Part shown: positions 3,547-15,140 of the stretch, piece after piece
Layout: each line of letters opens with the position of its first letter
Position numbering within the stretch: position 1 is the stretch's first letter
Source of the DNA: Pectobacterium polaris
Lineage (GTDB): Bacteria; Pseudomonadota; Gammaproteobacteria; Enterobacterales; Enterobacteriaceae
DNA: 64,000 nucleotides
Reading direction: 5' to 3'
NCBI RefSeq assembly: GCF_002307355.1
Contig: NZ_CP017481.1
Coordinates: 3,720,001-3,784,000 of the forward strand
Notes under the pieces: model-generated
Databases searched by the model: none
What the model was told of the DNA's origin: nothing
What the model saw: only the letters and a program-made list of their open reading frames with translations
Program-made: the position numbers and the translations under genes

Positions 3547-4715
3547 GCCCGAATTCACCCGACGTCCATTCAGCATACGTCAGGCCGCTAACGCTGCCGA
3601 CCCTGCGCGCGCAGTACGCCCGTATCCGATCGACGCTGGCCACTGGGCTCGCGTTGCCGTTTATCCGCGACGGATTAGCTGGCAGCCTGCATCTTCAACT
3701 GGCGAACGCACGCGAACAGGCCGAGGAATCGTCCACCGCGCAAGCCAGCAGTTGGCGTAGCGACATCGGCGATATCTCACTGATCAATCCGTTTCCCGTA
3801 CTCAGCCTGTTGTCGGACTGCCCGCTGCTGCCTCTCACAGAAGACGATGACGCGGCACAGGAATGGTACTGGACGCTCTACAACCAGTCGCTTAACCCCG
3901 TGCTGCGGGCGCTGGTCGGGGAAATCTATCCGCTGGACCGTTCTCAGAAAGAGCAGAATTCAGCAGAGCAACACGGCAAAGATGCGGCACTCTGCGTCTG
4001 GCTCAGCGTGAGCTGGAACGGCATGACCGTGCGCAGCCGGATGCAGGCTGCTGACGCCGTCTGGCTGGCGCTGTTTTCCCGTGCTGACTGGCAGCGCCAG
4101 CGCCGCGCGCTACCCGCAGGAATGACTATCGCTATTCCGCTCACGCTGGCTGATGCCGTGCTGCCGCTGTCCGCGTTACGCCGTTTGCGTACGGGCGATC
4201 TTATTTTGCCCAATCGCCCGTGGTTTACCCCCTCTGGCGAGGGAACGCTATCAGCCGGCACGCTGCACCTACGCGGCATGTTGCAGCTCACAGAGCTCGC
4301 CCCCTACACCTTTACCGTTACCGACATGGAGACTGTCTCAATGCCCCCATCCACGACTGACACGATGCTAGCCGATCCCCACTCAGAGGCATCAGCGCTT
4401 GAATTCGCGCAAATGAGTGACAATGTCACTGAAAATTTACCACCGCTGCCGGTCACCTTACATATTCGCTGCGGCAGCCTGACGATGACGCTGGCGGAAT
4501 TGCAATGCCTCGCCAGCGGTAGCGTGCTGACGCTGCGCGACGTGGTTCTGGGGCAAGCCTGGCTGTATCACGGTGATATAGCGCTCGCGAGCGGCGATCT
4601 GGTCGATGTGGAAGGCCGACTGGGGCTACAGATTACCCAGCGTTTTTCCGCACCGACGCCAATACTGCCGATAGCAGATGAAGAACACGCCGCTGAACCG
4701 GAGCTGGCACCATGA
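3543..4715 (+). CDS. hrcQ: HrcQ (SctQ) cytoplasmic sorting-platform (C-ring) protein
   Basis: A 390-residue protein with a variable N-terminal region and a C-terminal SpoA (FliN-like) domain at about residues 300-375, recognisable from a [15 protein letters not shown] start and a [12 protein letters not shown] beta motif. SctQ proteins form the cytoplasmic pods that recruit substrates and bind HrcN through SctL. The gene is a single unit here, unlike the split hrcQA/hrcQB of Pseudomonas syringae. It overlaps hrpP (ATGA at 3543) and hrcR (ATGA at 4712). Confidence 0.93.
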
Positions 4716-5365
4716 CTTCCGGCGCATTCGACCCGTTGATGTTTGCGCTCTTTCTGGGCGCCCTCTCCCTGATTCCGCTGATGATGATTGTCTGCACCTG
4801 CTTTCTGAAGATTGCGATTGTGCTGCTGATCACCCGCAACGCCATCGGGGTACAACAGGTGCCGCCCAATATGGCGCTGTACGGCATCGCGCTTGCGGCG
4901 ACGCTGTTTGTGATGGCACCCGTCTTTCAGGACATCAGCAAACGCGTGCAGGAAAAGCCGCTGGATATGACCGATATCACGTCGCTTCAGGCCAGCGTGA
5001 CCTACGGGCTGGAGCCGCTGCAAGCCTTTATGTCACGCAACGTTGACCCCGATATCCTCACACACCTGCATGAGAACAGCCTGCAAATGTGGCCTGCGTC
5101 GCTATCCGAAAAGGTGAATACACAAAATCTGCTGCTGGTGATTCCGGCTTTTGTGCTGTCGGAGCTACAGGCCGGGTTCAAAATCGGCTTCCTGATCTAT
5201 ATCCCGTTTATCGTCATCGACCTCATCGTCTCAAACGTGCTGTTGGCGCTGGGGATGCAGATGGTCGCGCCAATGACGCTCTCGCTGCCGTTAAAGCTGT
5301 TGCTGTTCGTGCTGGTCAACGGCTGGACGCGACTGCTGGACGGCCTGTTCTACAGCTACCTGTGA
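4712..5365 (+). CDS. hrcR: HrcR (SctR) export-gate membrane protein
   Basis: A 217-residue polytopic membrane protein of the FliP/SctR family. Visible signatures are the N-terminal segment [20 protein letters not shown], the sequence [20 protein letters not shown] and a C-terminal hydrophobic pair ending in [13 protein letters not shown]. Five SctR copies form the core of the export-gate pore with SctS and SctT. Length and gene order (hrcQ-hrcR-hrcS-hrcT-hrcU) are typical. Confidence 0.96.
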
Positions 5366-7541: not shown

Positions 7542-8468
7542 TTAGCTTTCCGCGATCTGACTCAAATAATACGCCTCTCCCTGCCGCAGCTCCACCATCA
7601 TGAAATCAAGGAAAGCCTGTTGCTGTGGCGCGTGCGCTTTGCCTGCCAGCGTTTGGATTTGAAGCGAGCGCTGGTCAAGCTGCTTAATATTCAGCGGTTT
7701 CAGCCGCATCGGTTGCTGTAAGCACTTGTACATGACGGAATAGAAACTACAGGCGGTGACCGCCCCCGGCGTGCTCATCGCATAGTAATAAAGCGTGGTG
7801 AAGTTGTTGCAGCACAGCGTCGGTTCCAGAAAGGTGCCGTTCATGCGGCATGAGAGGTCAAACAGCTGCCGTAACGTGGTCGAGGATTCCGGCAAGGCCA
7901 GCGGGAAAGGATGCAAATCCGCCAGTTGAATAGACTGCTGCGCCAGCGGATGATCGTCAGACATCAGCAGCATCAGCGGCGCAGGCAGCGCCAGTTCCAC
8001 ATTCACGCCCTGCTCAGGCGCTAGCGCAAACTGGAGCGCGATATCCACCTCACCATTGCGGATCATCTGGGACACCTGCATCGCCGAGTCCACTTTCAGC
8101 GCAAAGGTGGTATCCGGGTCATGCTGGCGGAAACGTGCAAATAGCGTCGGCAGCAGATCAAATGCCATCCCTTCCGTGCAGCCGATACGCAGCAGCGCCC
8201 GCCGACTGGCTTTCAGCCCCTGAATCTCCGCCACGGCAGCATCCATGTCCATCATGCTCTTGCGCACGTGATTTTCCAGAATGCGTCCCGCATCGTTTAG
8301 CACCATGCCGCGCGCATGACGCTCGAACAGCGGCACGCCGATGCGCTCTTCCAGCCGCTGGATTTGGCGACTGATCGCAGATACGGCCACAAACAGGTGC
8401 TGGCTAGCGGCGCTAAGCGAACCGGTGGTGGCAACCACTAGAAAATAACGAATCTCGGAGCTGTGCAT
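7542..8468 (-). CDS. LysR-family transcriptional regulator
   Basis: About 308 residues with an N-terminal winged helix (FLVVATTGSLSAASQHLFVAVSAISRQIQRLE) and a LysR substrate-binding domain. I place the start at the ATG at 8468 because an AAGGAA motif precedes it at the right distance; the ATG at 8489, seven codons upstream, has no recognisable ribosome-binding site. It is divergent from the M20 peptidase gene, the usual arrangement for a LysR regulator and its target, so control of that peptidase is the natural inference. The ligand is unknown. Confidence 0.9.
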   Translation of the reverse strand: MHSSEIRYFLVVATTGSLSAASQHLFVAVSAISRQIQRLEERIGVPLFERHARGMVLNDAGRILENHVRKSMMDMDAAVAEIQGLKASRRALLRIGCTEGMAFDLLPTLFARFRQHDPDTTFALKVDSAMQVSQMIRNGEVDIALQFALAPEQGVNVELALPAPLMLLMSDDHPLAQQSIQLADLHPFPLALPESSTTLRQLFDLSCRMNGTFLEPTLCCNNFTTLYYYAMSTPGAVTACSFYSVMYKCLQQPMRLKPLNIKQLDQRSLQIQTLAGKAHAPQQQAFLDFMMVELRQGEAYYLSQIAES

Positions 8469-8611
8469 GGCAACGTTCCTTTCAGACATCGCGGGGGGAT
8501 TCGCAGGTTTATATTAAAAGCAAAGCTTAATTGCAATTTTTATTATTGTTGCAAAGCTCGTTTTTTCTTTAAATATCGGTAACTTCGGCACATTATCCAG
8601 CAAGGAAAGGC
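8469..8611. promoter_or_regulatory. Divergent LysR / M20 peptidase control region
   Basis: This AT-rich 143-base spacer separates the two divergent starts. It holds a direct repeat of GCAAAGCT at 8520-8527 and 8551-8558 flanking TTAATTGCAA-type sequence compatible with the loose T-N11-A LysR box. The 31-base repeat spacing (three helical turns) would suit a LysR tetramer. Binding is inferred, not shown. Confidence 0.45.
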
Positions 8612-10024
8612 ATGACCAGCGCAGACCTTATTCGTATCGCCTGTGAACGTTTCGATCGCGGAGAATTTAAACAGACGCTGGCCCGGCGTATTGCCCATGC
8701 CAGCGAGAGCCAGAAAGCCGGTAACCATCCCGCGCTGAACCGCTATCTGACCGACGAAATCCAGCCCGCCTTGCAGGCGATGGGGTTCAGCGTAAGGCTG
8801 ATTACCTCGCCAGATGAACGCCATCCCCCTTTTCTGCTGGCCGAACGCATTGAAGATCCCAGCCTGCCGACCGTGCTGTCTTACGGCCACGGCGACGTGG
8901 TTTTTGGTGATGAAGAAAACTGGCGCGACGGGCTAAAACCGTGGGAATTGGTGGAAGAAGGTGACCATTGGTACGGACGCGGCAGCGCCGATAACAAAGG
9001 TCAACACAGCATCAACCTGATGGCGCTGGAGCAGGTATTTCAGGCTCGTGGGCAGCGTTTAGGCTTCAACTGCAAACTGCTGTTCGAGATGGGGGAAGAA
9101 ATTGGCTCACCGGGGCTGGCCGAGCTGTGCCAACAACACAAGCAGGCGCTGTCTGCTGATATCTTTATCGCCTCCGACGGGCCGCGCCTCAGCGCAGAGC
9201 GTCCGACGCTGTTCCTCGGTTCTCGCGGCTGCATCAATTTCCGTTTGCGCATCCAGGCACGCGATCAGGCCTATCACTCTGGCAACTGGGGCGGCCTGCT
9301 AAGCAATCCGGGCACCCAACTGGCGAACGCCGTGGCGAGTCTGGTTGATGGACAAGGACGGATGAAGATCGACGCCCTGCTGCCACCGCCGTTAACGCCC
9401 GCGTTGCGGGAAATCCTCAGCACAATCGACCCCGCTGGTGGCGAGGACGATCCGGCGATTGATGAAAACTGGGGCGAAGACGGTCTCACGCCTGCCGAAC
9501 GGCTATTTGGCTGGAACACGCTGGAAGTGCTGTCGTTCATTACCGGCAACCCGAGCAAGCCGGTGAACGCGATTCCCGCCGACGCGACGGCGATTTGCCA
9601 ATTGCGCTTTGTGGTTGGCACCGACTGGCAGCATCTGGCGCAACATGTGCGCCAACACCTCGACCAGCACGGCTTTACGCAGGTGGAGGTTGAGGTGCTT
9701 AATACCTCTCCGGCGACGCGCTTTAACCCTGAAGATCCGCTAGTGAACTGGACGCTGGCACTGATGCAGCACATCAGCGGCAAACAGCCTGCTTTATTAC
9801 CGAATTTGGGCGGATCGCTACCCAATGACGTTTTCGCCGATATCCTCGGCCTGCCGACGCTGTGGATCCCCCATTCCTATCCGGCATGCGGCCAGCACGC
9901 GGTCAACGAACACCTGCTGAAATCTGTCGCCCGCGAAGGGTTAGCGATCATGACCGGCCTGTTCTGGGAACTGGGGGAGCAAGGCAACTCTCTGTTGGTA
10001 CGACCTAGGCAACTTGAAGTATGA
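8612..10024 (+). CDS. M20-family metallopeptidase / amidohydrolase
   Basis: A 470-residue zinc-dependent hydrolase of the M20 (ArgE/DapE/carboxypeptidase) family. Metal and catalytic motifs are visible: YGHGDVVFG (His and Asp), YGRGSADNKGQ, LLFEMGEEIGSPGL (paired Glu) and a late PHSYPACGQHAVNE segment. Such enzymes remove acyl groups or cleave C-terminal amino acids from small peptides. Start ATG is preceded by AAGGAAAGG. Its proximity to an N-acylamino acid racemase-like gene and a methionine-type importer suggests deacylation of imported N-acyl amino acids, but this is inference; dipeptidase activity is the main alternative. Confidence 0.88.
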   Translation: MTSADLIRIACERFDRGEFKQTLARRIAHASESQKAGNHPALNRYLTDEIQPALQAMGFSVRLITSPDERHPPFLLAERIEDPSLPTVLSYGHGDVVFGDEENWRDGLKPWELVEEGDHWYGRGSADNKGQHSINLMALEQVFQARGQRLGFNCKLLFEMGEEIGSPGLAELCQQHKQALSADIFIASDGPRLSAERPTLFLGSRGCINFRLRIQARDQAYHSGNWGGLLSNPGTQLANAVASLVDGQGRMKIDALLPPPLTPALREILSTIDPAGGEDDPAIDENWGEDGLTPAERLFGWNTLEVLSFITGNPSKPVNAIPADATAICQLRFVVGTDWQHLAQHVRQHLDQHGFTQVEVEVLNTSPATRFNPEDPLVNWTLALMQHISGKQPALLPNLGGSLPNDVFADILGLPTLWIPHSYPACGQHAVNEHLLKSVAREGLAIMTGLFWELGEQGNSLLVRPRQLEV

Positions 10025-10597: not shown

Positions 10598-11407
10598 TTA
10601 CTTCTTCATCCATTCAGGCTTCTGGAACGCGTGGAACATGGAGTTTTTGTCCTCAAAGAACGCCGCGAATTCCGGAGATTGAACGGCGGCTTTCAGATCC
10701 TGAGCAAACGGTTTGTCGGCATCTTCCGCACGTACAACGATCATGTTTTTCAGATCTTCCGGCAGCACATCCAGTTGAATCGCGTCAGAAAGGTTCAGAC
10801 CAGCAGAAATCGCGAAGTTGGCGTTAATCAGCGAACCCGTTACGCCGCCCAAAGCACGCGGTAGCTGTGCTGCTTCCAGCGGTTTAAAGACCAGCCCTTT
10901 CGGGTTTTCGGTGATATCACGCAGCGAGGCTTTCGTCGGCGTAATGTCTGGATTGATCTTGATCAGGCCATATTTTTGCAGGAAATCCAGCGAACGCGCC
11001 AGGTTTGATGGATCGTTTGGCAGCGTTACGATATCGCCTGCTTTCAGCTCATCCAACGAGCGTACTTTGTTGGAGTAAAAGCCCATGCTGGCCGTCGGCA
11101 CGGTGATCACTTCTGCCAGTTTCAACCCTTTATCCGCGCTGAAACGATCAAGATAGCGGCGGTTTTGAAACAGGTTGGCATCGATACTGCTGTTCGACAG
11201 CGCCAGATTCGGCTGGATGTAGTCGCTGAATTCGCGCACTTTTACCTCGTAGCCTTTTTTCACCATTTCCGGCTTGATCGCTTTCGTGACCATGTCGCCA
11301 TACGGCCCCGGCGAGACGCCGATGGTGATTTCTTTGCCTGAATCTGCTGCGTAAGCCTGAGAGATGCCCAATGCCAGCATGAGTGGAATGAGTTTTTTCA
11401 ATCGCAT
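10598..11407 (-). CDS. metQ: MetQ/NlpA-family ABC transporter substrate-binding protein
   Basis: A 269-residue periplasmic binding protein with a cleavable signal peptide (ending near SQAYAADS). The SPGPYGDMV start of the mature protein and the YSNKVRSLDELKAGDIVTLPND and FKPLEAAQLPRAL segments are diagnostic of the MetQ/NlpA family. The signal peptide has no lipobox Cys, unlike E. coli MetQ, so the protein is probably soluble in the periplasm. It is the last gene of a metN-metI-racemase-metQ operon. The substrate may be L- or D-methionine or an N-acyl or other methionine-like compound; this paralogue is distinct from the usual metNIQ because an enzyme gene is inserted. Confidence 0.88.
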   Translation of the reverse strand: MRLKKLIPLMLALGISQAYAADSGKEITIGVSPGPYGDMVTKAIKPEMVKKGYEVKVREFSDYIQPNLALSNSSIDANLFQNRRYLDRFSADKGLKLAEVITVPTASMGFYSNKVRSLDELKAGDIVTLPNDPSNLARSLDFLQKYGLIKINPDITPTKASLRDITENPKGLVFKPLEAAQLPRALGGVTGSLINANFAISAGLNLSDAIQLDVLPEDLKNMIVVRAEDADKPFAQDLKAAVQSPEFAAFFEDKNSMFHAFQKPEWMKK

Positions 11408-11695: not shown

Positions 11696-12808
11696 TTAAA
11701 ACAAAAAGGTTTCCTGTCCGTAGCAATATTTTTCGTACAGTTCAGGGTTAATCTCGAAGCCGATTCCCGGTTTATTTGGCACTGCGACGCAGCTGTCTTT
11801 GTCTAATTCGACAAACGGCAGCATGAAGTCTTCATGCCAGTAGCGGGAAGACGGCGGGATATCGTGCGCGTAGATAAAGTTCGGCAACGTAGATACCGCG
11901 ATGTTGTGCGCTTTACCGACCGCCGTATCCAGCATACCGCCGCACCACACCGGAATATTGTGCGCCTGACAGTAGTCATGAATCAGCTTGGTTTCGGTAA
12001 TGCCGCCGACACGCGCGACTTTAATATTGATGATTTTGGCGCTGCCCAGCTCTATCGCCTTACGCGCATCCTCTACCGACGCAATGCTTTCATCCAGACA
12101 GATAGGGGTATTTACCGCCGCCTGAAGTTTGCGGTGGTCGATAATGTCGTCGTGCGCCAGCGGCTGTTCGATCATCAGCAGATTGAATTGATCAATGCGC
12201 TTAAAGAAATCAATATCGTCCAGCGTGTAGGCAGAATTGGCATCCACCATCAGCGTGATATCACCAAATGCCTGACGCAGCGCCAGAATATAGTCGTAAT
12301 CTTTTCCCGGTTTGATCTTTATTTTGATGCGCTTGTAGCCTTCGTTCAGGAAATTATCGACCACGCTGACTAATTTATCAGGCGTTTCCTGAATACCAAT
12401 ACTCACACCCGCTTCGACGTTATTTCGCACGCCGCCCAGTAATTGATGCAACGGCACGCCTTTTATCTTCGCGTAAGCATCCCAAATACCGCCTTCGATT
12501 GCCGCTTTAGCGCAGTTATTACGCTTTACCGGGGCGAAAATATCGCGCACCTGTGAAGGATGCTCTATATCTCCGGCCTGCTTAATCATCGGGATCAGGA
12601 AGTCACGCATAATATGCCAAGCGGTGACGTTGGTTTCTTCGTTATAAAACGGCAGCGAAATTGCCGAGCAATCGCCGTAACCAATGTGCCCGCCAGCGTG
12701 GACTTCCGCGATGGAGAAGTGTTTCTCCGTCTGCGTCGCAAAGCTGGTCGTAAATGGCGTTTTCAGCGCCATTTTCATTTTTCTTAATACAATTTTGTCT
12801 ATTTTCAT
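11696..12808 (-). CDS. N-acylamino acid racemase / o-succinylbenzoate synthase family enzyme (enolase superfamily)
   Basis: A 370-residue enzyme of the muconate lactonizing subgroup. The full acid-base set is present: KIK at residues 164-166, metal ligands Asp189 (MVDAN), Glu214 (MIEQPL) and Asp239 (CLDES), and Lys263 (NIKVARVGG). That spacing fits the NSAR/OSBS family, whose members either make o-succinylbenzoate in menaquinone synthesis or racemise N-succinyl/N-acyl amino acids. The gene lies between metI and the metQ-like gene of an importer operon, with no men genes nearby, so a racemase acting on an imported amino acid derivative is the better inference. Dipeptide epimerase is less likely. 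Confidence 0.85.
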   Translation of the reverse strand: MKIDKIVLRKMKMALKTPFTTSFATQTEKHFSIAEVHAGGHIGYGDCSAISLPFYNEETNVTAWHIMRDFLIPMIKQAGDIEHPSQVRDIFAPVKRNNCAKAAIEGGIWDAYAKIKGVPLHQLLGGVRNNVEAGVSIGIQETPDKLVSVVDNFLNEGYKRIKIKIKPGKDYDYILALRQAFGDITLMVDANSAYTLDDIDFFKRIDQFNLLMIEQPLAHDDIIDHRKLQAAVNTPICLDESIASVEDARKAIELGSAKIINIKVARVGGITETKLIHDYCQAHNIPVWCGGMLDTAVGKAHNIAVSTLPNFIYAHDIPPSSRYWHEDFMLPFVELDKDSCVAVPNKPGIGFEINPELYEKYCYGQETFLF

Positions 12809-12849
12809 GACATCTCTCTGCTGCCCTGAATACCCTATTCGGTCTTGGT

Positions 12850-13509
12850 TTAGCGGCGTTCGCGCTTATTCGCCCGACGCGATAACATATCACCCAGCGT
12901 TTGCACGACCTGCACCAACACCACCAGCGCAATCACGGTCACCACCATCACTTCGGTTTCATAGCGGTAATAGCCGAAGCGGATCGCCAGATCGCCGACA
13001 CCGCCGCCGCCAACAATCCCGGCCATCGCCGAGTAGCCAATCAGGCTGACCAGCGTGATCGTCAGGCCGCGTAACAATCCAGCCAGCGCTTCCGGCAACA
13101 ACACAGTCCCGATGATACGCGTTGGGCTGGCACCAAAGGCCTCCGCCGCTTCCACTATGCCCGGATCGACTTCACGCAGCGCGGAATCCACCAGACGCGC
13201 ATAAAACGCAATCGCCGCGACGGACATCGGCACCGCCGCCGCAACTGGTCCAATTGTGTTCCCCAGCAGCAGCTGCGTTAATGGCAACAGCAGCACCAGC
13301 AGGATCACAAACGGGATCGAGCGGATGATATTCACCAGAATGGTCGAGACCAGATAGACAAAACGGTTCTGCCAGAATAAATGACGATCGGTCACATAAA
13401 TCGCGATACCTAACGGCAGGCCGAATATCACCGCACAGAGCGTTGAAATACACACCATCGTGAAGGTTTCACCGAAGGCGAAGATTAATTCACCGATTAA
13501 ATCAGTCAT
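12850..13509 (-). CDS. metI: MetI-family ABC transporter permease
   Basis: The product is a 219-residue permease with about five membrane helices and the EAA loop EAAEAFGASPTRIIGTVLLPEALAG typical of methionine-type importers. The ATG at 13509 is chosen because a GGAGG motif lies upstream and it overlaps the metN stop (ATGACTGA); a longer reading would start 14 codons earlier inside metN. It partners with MetN and the MetQ-like protein. Confidence 0.92.
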   Translation of the reverse strand: MTDLIGELIFAFGETFTMVCISTLCAVIFGLPLGIAIYVTDRHLFWQNRFVYLVSTILVNIIRSIPFVILLVLLLPLTQLLLGNTIGPVAAAVPMSVAAIAFYARLVDSALREVDPGIVEAAEAFGASPTRIIGTVLLPEALAGLLRGLTITLVSLIGYSAMAGIVGGGGVGDLAIRFGYYRYETEVMVVTVIALVVLVQVVQTLGDMLSRRANKRERR

Positions 13510-14524
13510 TGATGACCTCCACCCCAAAGGTATTCTGTCGAATATAAGCAATAGCAGCGGCTAAATTATCCGCTGTCGGATCGTCACGGTATGAAATCTG
13601 AGCGATAATATGCCCCAGCGCGCGATCGTTAATGTATTCAATATTGCCGTGCAGAATATTGACCGATACCTGAAACTGCTGCGCCACGTCGGATAATATC
13701 GGTTGTTCTACCGAATCATCGGCGAAAAGTATTTTCAGCAAAACGCCTTTATTATTCTGCTTAAAGCGTTCAGGTAATTCGACCGGGCTGGTATGGCTAA
13801 CCAGCTGTTTGGTGTAGGCGTGTTGCGGCGCAGAGAAGATCGTAAAGACGTCGCCCTCTTCCACAATATTTCCGCCCGTCATCACCGCCATGCGCTGACA
13901 AATACTTTTAATCACGCTCATTTCATGGGAAATCAGCACGATCGTGATGCCTAACCGGACATTGATACTTTTCAAGAGCGCCAGAATAGACGCCGACGTT
14001 TCCAAATCCAGCGCCGAGGTCGGTTCATCACACAGCAGCACTTCGGGATGGTTGGCGATGGCACGGGCGATGCCCACACGCTGTTTCTGTCCGCCGCTCA
14101 GCTGCGCCGGATAGGCGGTCCCTTTGTCCTGCAACCCGACCAGCGCCAAGATTTCCGGCACGCGCGAGGCAATCTCTTCTTTACCCTTCCCCGCAGCACG
14201 CAGGCTGAACGCCACGTTGTCATACACATTGCGGGTATGCATCAGATTAAAATGCTGGAATATCATCCCGATACGCTGCCGATGCTGGCGCAGTTCGCGG
14301 CCAGACGCATTGCTAATCAGCGTATCGCCCAGAAACACGCGCCCTTCTGTTGGGCGCTGCAATAAATTGATCGTCCGCAACAGCGTACTTTTTCCTGCGC
14401 CGCTGGTGCCGACAATCCCAAAAACTTCACCCTGTTGAATGGTCAGGTTGACGTTGTTTACCGCCCTGGACTGTGCTGCTTTACCGGCGGGGAAATCAAC
14501 GCTCACGTTTTCTAACCGAATCAT
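13502..14524 (-). CDS. metN: MetN-family ABC transporter ATPase
   Basis: About 340 residues with Walker A GTSGAGKST, the LSGGQKQRVGIARA signature, Walker B VLLCDEPTSALD, and a C-terminal NIL-type regulatory domain (about residues 260-340) that in E. coli MetN binds methionine for trans-inhibition. The ATG at 14524 (MIRLENVSV) fits E. coli MetN better than a GTG four codons upstream that sits on top of the AGGAG motif. First gene of the minus-strand importer operon. Confidence 0.93.
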   Translation of the reverse strand: MIRLENVSVDFPAGKAAQSRAVNNVNLTIQQGEVFGIVGTSGAGKSTLLRTINLLQRPTEGRVFLGDTLISNASGRELRQHRQRIGMIFQHFNLMHTRNVYDNVAFSLRAAGKGKEEIASRVPEILALVGLQDKGTAYPAQLSGGQKQRVGIARAIANHPEVLLCDEPTSALDLETSASILALLKSINVRLGITIVLISHEMSVIKSICQRMAVMTGGNIVEEGDVFTIFSAPQHAYTKQLVSHTSPVELPERFKQNNKGVLLKILFADDSVEQPILSDVAQQFQVSVNILHGNIEYINDRALGHIIAQISYRDDPTADNLAAAIAYIRQNTFGVEVIND

Positions 14525-15140
14525 TACCTGACTCACTCCTGCTGTTACTGACTATTTTATTGGCATACGCAAACGTATGTCTGTTTGATGTAGGGAAACC
14601 ATTATTCGTAGGTAAAACCATTGTTCTTGGGTAAGACTATTGTTCGTAGGTAAACATTGGCTCGTGGGTAAAATTATTTCGCATTAGTTGACGTTGAACC
14701 TATCCCACAGGACTGTTTCACTTGCCATTTTTAACAGGGAGAGGCTCGCCATCGCCTTTTTGCGTTGAGGAATAACCGGGCTATTTATGTCTGTCATTTT
14801 TGTTATAATTAGATTAATTACTTATAAATCAATTAAATATTAAAAAATAATCGTCTGTTTAAAGTAGAGAGAAATGAGCTTTGCGTCAATGATAAAAAAA
14901 GCAAATCACCTTTCTGTTTTTTAGAACCTTTTTTATGTCTTTTTCTTCTATATAAGCAACCAGATAAGAAACTGTTGTCCTCGGTTACCGCGTGAGGTTC
15001 ACGACGTCACCAAACATAAAAAATCATGATAATGCGTTGATAAGCATCTCAAAATATATCCTGAAACATTACCATCACAATCAGCGCCTAGCCTGATCCC
15101 GTACCGACAGACGTTTATCCTCCCAATTAAGGATGCCACT
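14525..15140. other. Divergent promoter region between metN and the PAP2 phosphatase
   Basis: A 616-base AT-rich spacer with no convincing gene. It contains the 18-19 base tandem array at 14591-14681 close to metN, and a TGTTATAAT extended -10-like element at 14801-14809 that could belong to a plus-strand promoter. The central portion is otherwise featureless to the eye. Confidence 0.4.
14591..14681. repeat. Degenerate 18-19 base tandem repeat, five units, upstream of metN
   Basis: Five consecutive units start at 14591, 14609, 14628, 14647 and 14665, each beginning T(A/G)GG(G/T)(A)AA and most ending ATT(G)TTCG or similar. Units are 17-19 bases, close to two helical turns, and lie 67-157 bases upstream of the metN start. 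The pattern suggests a protein-binding array or slipped-strand duplication in the promoter. Confidence 0.75.

Follow-up and report, generated by a model that had tools for sequence, protein, structure and literature searches.

We examined a 64,000-nucleotide (nt) stretch of Pectobacterium polaris DNA (contig NZ_CP017481.1, positions 3,720,001 to 3,784,000; hereafter the window), in which the gene for an enolase-superfamily enzyme of the N-succinylamino acid racemase (NSAR)/o-succinylbenzoate synthase (OSBS) family lies among the genes of a methionine-type ATP-binding cassette (ABC) importer. The minus strand carries, in this order, a metN-like ATPase gene encoding a C-terminal NIL domain (13502-14524; ABC_tran and NIL in family scans, the latter at 69.9 bits), a metI-like permease gene (12850-13509; BPD_transp_1), the gene for the N-acylamino acid racemase-like enzyme (11696-12808; TIGR01928, MR_MLE) and a gene for an NlpA/MetQ-family substrate-binding protein (SBP; 10598-11407; PF03180), which has a signal peptide lacking a lipobox and the pocket motif FQNRRY at residues 80-85. 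The metN- and metI-like genes overlap by 8 nt, and gaps of 41 nt and 288 nt separate metI from the NSAR-like gene and that gene from the SBP gene. Just beyond lie the divergent genes for an M20 metallohydrolase of the PRK07079 family, in its carnosinase-like branch (8612-10024, plus strand; curated model), and a LysR-type regulator (7542-8489, minus strand; family scan), with a 122-nt spacer between them. A conserved 27-bp element, detected by aligning upstream regions, precedes both metN (14878-14904, minus strand) and the M20 gene (8531-8557, plus strand). An earlier prediction made from this DNA (the original prediction) had described the same minus-strand order and the neighbouring M20 and LysR genes; coordinates and family scans agree with it on both counts.

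Aligned with its best solved relatives, the N-acylamino acid racemases of PDB 2zc8 and 1r0m, the enzyme shows both catalytic lysines and all three metal ligands that mark the NSAR/OSBS family within the MLE subgroup of the enolase superfamily: K162-I-K164-I-K166, D189, E214, D239, K263 and R266 are all present. We take K162/K164, D189, E214, D239 and K263 to be the catalytic and metal-ligand residues, and R266 is presumably an NSAR-specificity residue. The active site is as complete as originally predicted, but the numbering given then (KIK 164-166) was off by two, the alignment to 2zc8 and 1r0m indicating that the motif is probably K162-x-K164. The M20 protein scores 793.5 bits against the PRK07079 model (cut-off 330) and retains the metal-ligand motifs, the roles of which we assume from related hydrolases. 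The cellular role of NSAR-family enzymes is, to our knowledge, mostly open. For N-acylamino acid racemases, N-acetyl-methionine as well as N-succinyl amino acids are reported as substrates (PMC8142540).

By score alone, the curated TIGR01928 model (338.6 bits; cut-off 200.65), which is an OSBS model, would label the enzyme an o-succinylbenzoate synthase, and the menC label carried by NSAR relatives in several public records agrees with that score. The enzyme scores far under the cut-offs of the dipeptide-epimerase models. It lies outside any men context and is not the only menC candidate of its genome: a canonical full-length menC (384 bits), by eye inside a men cluster, is encoded elsewhere. 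Because of this gene we rejected a menaquinone/OSBS role. The original prediction had hinged in part on a menC being present elsewhere, and the genome bears it out on that point. The window's genome holds 15 enolase-superfamily C-domain matches, 14 of them over the cut-off.

The importer is related to MetNIQ but resembles SfbABC more closely. All three components fall under the cut-offs of the MetNIQ models (MetN, TIGR02314, 341.6 bits versus 499.7; MetI, 191.3 versus 212; MetQ, 145.3 versus 374). Three further PF03180 proteins are encoded in the window's genome: one beside metN- and metI-like genes that reads as canonical metNIQ (L090), a lone NlpA-like lipoprotein (L091) and one in an SBP-metN-metI paralog cluster (L092). 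The cassette importer is nearest the last of these (SBP 62%, MetN 68%, MetI 88% identity, versus 34%, 42% and 47% for L090). The identity to L092 is uneven and peaks in MetI, for which gene conversion is one possible explanation and strong constraint on the membrane path another. The nearest relative of the SBP with a named operon is Salmonella SfbA (64% identity), which likewise adjoins MetN- and MetI-like partners; MetN and MetI were compared with the L092 paralog rather than with Salmonella. The label 'metQ-like' in the original prediction agrees with the family scan (PF03180), but the protein is SfbA-like rather than MetQ-like (64% versus 34%). Unlike the cassette, the Salmonella SfbABC stretch (L112) has no annotated racemase or M20 gene. 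Several metNIQ-like clusters, metD2-7, have already been noted in gammaproteobacteria (PMC3228920).

The predicted absence of a lipobox was also correct, there being no Cys in SBP residues 1-40, but it is not special to the cassette, because the signal region of the L092 paralog lacks Cys as well. Cys18 of Salmonella SfbA lies in lipobox-like surroundings. For the binding site we used the methionine contacts of Neisseria meningitidis MetQ (NmMetQ) as reference (PMC6739813) and compared 39 SBPs (the window, 16 named loci and 22 further genomes; species overlap, so these are not independent). Six of the seven methionine contacts are kept in all 39 NSAR-linked enterobacterial SBPs, a likeness to MetNIQ that adds to the shared fold family and NIL domain. 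The seventh, His100 on the thioether side, is Asn in 39/39, followed by Arg-Arg in 39/39, so that FQNRRY in the window stands against FQHTLY in Salmonella SfbA. The His100 equivalent is retained in SfbA, in all three other PF03180 proteins of the window's genome (L090, L091, L092) and in a more distant assembly described below (G145). This substitution points to a changed side-chain pocket.

The cassette is conserved across related enterobacteria. Among 16 named loci, one genome per species (10 Pectobacterium, 1 Samsonia, 2 Brenneria, 2 Symbiopectobacterium and Pantoea sp. A4), the metN-metI-NSAR-SBP order is found in 14, M20 in 15 and LysR in all 16. Across the genus Pectobacterium the NSAR-like enzyme is present in 23 of 25 genomes, and the four-gene order is kept in 23/23 of these (loci of 4.1 kb, so that MetN is visible only from about residue 74), which argues that the order is not due to chance. 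M20 is present in the same 23 genomes and absent from the same two (G395 and G406). The conserved order and linked M20 anticipated by the original prediction are thus found throughout the Pectobacterium genomes that carry the enzyme; of the GNAT (N-acetyltransferase family) genes that it offered as an alternative neighbour, the type seen in Bacillaceae NSAR clusters has no homologue in the window's genome at E<=0.01. In wider samples the enzyme is rare, occurring in 4/394 genomes of the order at E<=1e-80 and, at E<=1e-60, in 1/369 genomes of the class (the window's own) and 4/398 of the phylum. Two individual loci deserve mention. In G398 the NSAR-like enzyme, MetI, SBP and the visible part of MetN match over their lengths despite a broken M20 gene, and in one Symbiopectobacterium (L027) the metN match (4461-5315) is split in two by the absence of residues 244-302.

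The two transcription units share the 27-bp element, with consensus TTGC-NN-TTTTTAT-N-ATTG-NN-GCAAAGC. At <=3 mismatches the window contains two matches, compared with none in 100 shuffles. Genus-wide at the same threshold, the element occurs exactly twice, once per strand, in 23/23 cassette genomes, every one of the 46 sites falls where expected, before metN or before M20, and a reversed control pattern gave no match in 25 genomes. Since the two sites themselves served to define the pattern, finding it there is circular; the information lies in the lack of any other site and in the cassette-free genomes, where the element is missing (G395) or occurs once with 3 mismatches (G406). At the G406 site (L110 6015-6128), the interval from the flanking PAP2 gene to the next gene retains a degenerate element along with 22 residues of LysR, which looks like the probable scar of a whole-block loss. 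Among the named loci, both sites are present at <=6 mismatches in 15/16; in Brenneria one of the sites now stands before NSAR(-SBP). The metN and M20 units probably form one regulon, to judge from the shared element, and the LysR protein would be the factor that reads the element and regulates both units.

Related assemblies occur elsewhere with other partners. A 1.7-Mb genome from another family of the order (G145), probably Succinivibrionaceae, encodes on one strand metQ(lipoprotein)-NSAR(47%)-metN-metI-M20. The importer has diverged (its SBP is 30% identical to that of the window), and the M20 is PRK07338-like, in contrast to PRK07079 in the window, with no BLAST match between the two at E<=1. 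In G364 an NSAR fragment at a contig end is followed on the same strand by M20 and then by a pyridoxal phosphate-dependent enzyme of Cys/Met metabolism. Lactobacilli have M20, a major facilitator superfamily (MFS) transporter and NSAR in 7/8 loci (M20 of L035 partly covered), with LysR beside the cluster in four; the eighth (L067) has the enzyme without M20 or MFS. These clusters, like the M20-MFS-GntR-NSAR run of Niallia taxi, combine a transporter, an NSAR and an M20 of a related branch, but the transporter is MFS instead of ABC and the M20 only 26-30% identical. A Bacteroidales locus has M20 and a DcuC carrier near NSAR. Bacillaceae have M20-GNAT-NSAR or M20-NSAR clusters, which we take to represent the Geobacillus-type D-amino acid pathway; they share with the window an NSAR-family enzyme beside an M20, whereas the cassette lacks the GNAT, uses another M20 subfamily and has a dedicated ABC importer and LysR. 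No importer or M20 was recognised by eye around the 41% NSAR of G955, a GC-rich genome in which open reading frame calls are unreliable. Two plasmid records, labelled Stenotrophomonas rhizophila (L061) and Pseudomonas fluorescens (L063), contain genes of Bacillus type (comX; a yteA-family sporulation gene and a men cluster), and the L061 gene order is nearly identical to that of a Lysinibacillus plasmid; both look mislabelled or contaminated.

M20 orthologs were also followed in a plasmid collection (122 records at E<=1e-60), in which 17 neighbourhoods of 13-17 kb each, drawn from the best and from spread matches, were inspected. The orthologs lie beside Dpp-type importers in 6/17 and beside MFS transporters in 7/17. 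In Pseudochrobactrum (L130 2576-12156) a Dpp-type importer, a gamma-glutamyltransferase, M20, a binding protein and an NSAR-like enzyme (40%, labelled menC) form one run. In Pantoea At-9b the M20 gene adjoins a LysR gene (53.5% identity to that of the window) within a Dpp-type importer cluster; a comparable pair of regulator and hydrolase thus keeps different company there.

Because their linkage is conserved, they are present and absent jointly, they share a cis-element and they are assembled a second time elsewhere, we conclude that importer, racemase and M20 make up one functional unit. We favour, with moderate confidence, the interpretation that this unit serves specifically to salvage an N-acylated amino acid, with a D-configured and probably methionine-like residue, by import, racemisation and deacylation. 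The LysR protein would switch on both transcription units via the shared element, and the Sfb/Met-type importer (SBP, MetI, MetN) would take the conjugate into the cell. There the enolase-superfamily enzyme would racemise the N-acyl amino acid and the M20 hydrolase would cleave the amide of the L-form, yielding a usable L-amino acid and an acyl acid. The original prediction had sketched the same import-racemisation-deacylation layout; the evidence just listed supports the single unit, but not the N-succinylation route that accompanied it, as no homologue of the Bacillaceae GNAT is found in the window's genome at E<=0.01. The parts are known, and their combination is most likely a new form of NSAR-based amino acid salvage. 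No paper was found that links NSAR with methionine, an ABC transporter and an operon, and none of the 30 papers listed (of 44) in a further search describes such a cassette in its title or opening lines.

Several observations weigh against salvage of an N-acylated amino acid. The M20 belongs to a carnosinase/dipeptidase-like branch and not to the aminoacylases, and only 1/17 plasmid neighbourhoods of M20 orthologs contains an NSAR-like enzyme. The residues equivalent to R156, N213 and N238 of NmMetQ, which hold the free amine and carboxylate, are kept in 39/39 SBPs; the SBP may consequently bind a free amino acid, and its predicted pocket speaks against an N-acyl ligand, unless some other site accommodates the cap. 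The linkage also has gaps: 2/2 Brenneria keep NSAR, SBP and M20 without metNI directly upstream (only 863 nt covered there in L024), in Pantoea sp. A4 the importer, NSAR and LysR are accompanied by no M20 within 13 kb and no element at <=6 mismatches, and the M20 gene of G398 (C1:2439489-2440778) contains two in-frame stops. Finally, G145 and the window may not have reached their assemblies fully independently, since the enzyme tree groups G145 with the enterobacterial enzymes (weak support, 85/52; long branch) and common ancestry of the enzyme is thus possible. Alkanesulfonate ssu-type genes lie just past the cassette LysR of Pantoea sp. A4 (L028 9153-12859), a possible link to sulfur.

The conserved amine- and carboxylate-binding residues are what would be expected if the importer took up a free D-amino acid, and MetNIQ systems are reported to import D-methionine (PMC6739813). 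An unlinked acyltransferase would then cap the amino acid inside the cell, the racemase would invert it and M20 would uncap it. Capping, racemisation and uncapping make up the classical NSAR route, and a GNAT is present in Bacillaceae NSAR clusters. The cassette itself has no GNAT, however, and a search aimed at the Bacillaceae GNAT family alone found no homologue at E<=0.01 in the window's genome (G000), G145, G805 or G806, with the positive control W01 detected. We rejected intracellular N-succinylation by a Bacillaceae-type GNAT on this ground, and regard uptake of a free D-amino acid as rather unlikely. Dipeptides or gamma-glutamyl peptides, with M20 acting as dipeptidase and the enolase as peptide epimerase, make a poorer candidate still. 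They would suit the best PDB matches of the M20 (carnosinase, Cys-Gly or non-specific dipeptidases), the Dpp-type clusters around six of the 17 plasmid orthologs and the gamma-glutamyltransferase genes in two of those neighbourhoods (L127 and L130), but they sit badly with an enolase of the NSAR/OSBS family that falls so far short of the epimerase models, with an importer that is MetQ/Sfb-type rather than Dpp-type, and with cassette genes that include no gamma-glutamyltransferase.

That the enolase is a second o-succinylbenzoate synthase seems very improbable. Its score exceeds the curated OSBS cut-off and a 47%-identical enzyme lies inside a men gene cluster (L063), yet the canonical menC is encoded elsewhere, men genes are absent from the locus, and the element found there also precedes M20. 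Scarcely credible, finally, is racemisation of N-acyl homoserine or its lactone. D-acyl homoserine lactones have been reported in Pectobacterium atrosepticum, and the authors say that a racemase may be involved, but the same report describes D-signals in Pseudomonas aeruginosa too (PMC10065242), and the enzyme here is linked to an amino-acid importer and an M20.

Within the salvage interpretation, one tentative proposal concerns the cap. N-malonyl-D-amino acids had been noted as a candidate before the Niallia and ACC deaminase neighbourhoods described next were seen (ACC, 1-aminocyclopropane-1-carboxylate). Arabidopsis is reported to accumulate malonyl-methionine on D-methionine (PMC6921899), and plants to produce malonyl-ACC (PMC7820975). 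It is possible, if doubtful, that the caps are plant N-malonyl groups and that the cassette handles the chiral substrates within a broader bacterial pathway stripping plant N-malonyl conjugates. The PRK07079 M20 would then be a long-missing N-malonyl(-amino acid/ACC) hydrolase, working with ACC deaminase on achiral malonyl-ACC and with the racemase on N-malonyl-D-amino acids. The top match to the enzyme in the plasmid collection (54.8%) comes from Niallia taxi, in which malonate decarboxylase genes mdcH-A-B-C-DE-G are followed after ~0.8 kb, on the same strand, by the M20-MFS-GntR-NSAR run. MdcB, C, DE and G exceed their curated cut-offs, MdcA was scored as a fragment and MdcH was assigned by eye; by eye, no malonate transporter was recognised in this region. 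Because of the ~0.8-kb gap the mdc and M20-NSAR units are likely transcribed separately.

The acdS gene, for ACC deaminase, lies near the M20 ortholog in 6/17 plasmid neighbourhoods (L114, L117, L118, L123, L127, L128), those of Pantoea At-9b, Caballeronia M1242, Azospirillum B510, Burkholderia cenocepacia, Pseudosulfitobacter and Rhodococcus, which span gamma-, beta- and alphaproteobacteria and an actinomycete. Four of the six deaminases were scored, and all four exceed the curated cut-off. With a single, randomly placed acdS on each of the 17 replicons, the expected number of such neighbours would be 0.40; acdS is found on 212 of 72,556 plasmid records. The Pseudosulfitobacter neighbourhood also holds a D-serine ammonia-lyase, a D-amino acid dehydrogenase-like gene under its cut-off and, at the edge, a gene annotated as malonyl-CoA decarboxylase. 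From this gene neighbourhood, the PRK07079 M20 proteins near acdS are candidate hydrolases of plant ACC conjugates. Of the papers on malonyl-ACC, the 12 listed (of 25) name no bacterial malonyl-ACC hydrolase in their titles or opening lines, and a review of ACC biology calls the activity unknown (PMC4227472).

The malonyl proposal has evidence to contend with on several sides. Pectobacterium reference genomes are reported to lack malonate utilisation, and Samsonia erythrinae to be malonate-negative (PMC10850344). Niallia is alone among the loci examined in having mdc beside an NSAR cassette, and 11/17 M20-ortholog neighbourhoods lack acdS. The gamma-glutamyltransferase near M20 in two neighbourhoods fits gamma-glutamyl or dipeptide substrates equally well, and the SBP pocket, compared residue by residue, looks built for a free amino acid.

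With an NSAR-family enzyme linked to an importer, a hydrolase and a probable operator of its own, the question of its substrate can be put to a direct test. Plants make capped D-amino acids, and the cassette may be a way for a soft-rot bacterium to eat them. If the N-malonyl proposal is true, these genes supply sequence candidates for a malonyl-ACC hydrolase and link plant-associated bacteria to plant conjugates of D-amino acids and of the ethylene precursor.

Other candidate signals around the cassette were set aside. Between 7000 and 17000 no RNA family of Rfam matched at gathering scores, and we rejected RNA regulation accordingly. Promoter-like sites occur at chance level (7 versus 6.4) and terminator-like sites above it (11 versus 5.4); neither was used. 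A palindrome at 14562-14580 and a 19-bp tandem array at 14596-14673 were rejected as operators, being unconserved in most of 14 aligned relatives. The array, upstream of metN, comprises 4.2 copies of its unit and among these relatives recurs, in part, in P. carotovorum (L026) only.

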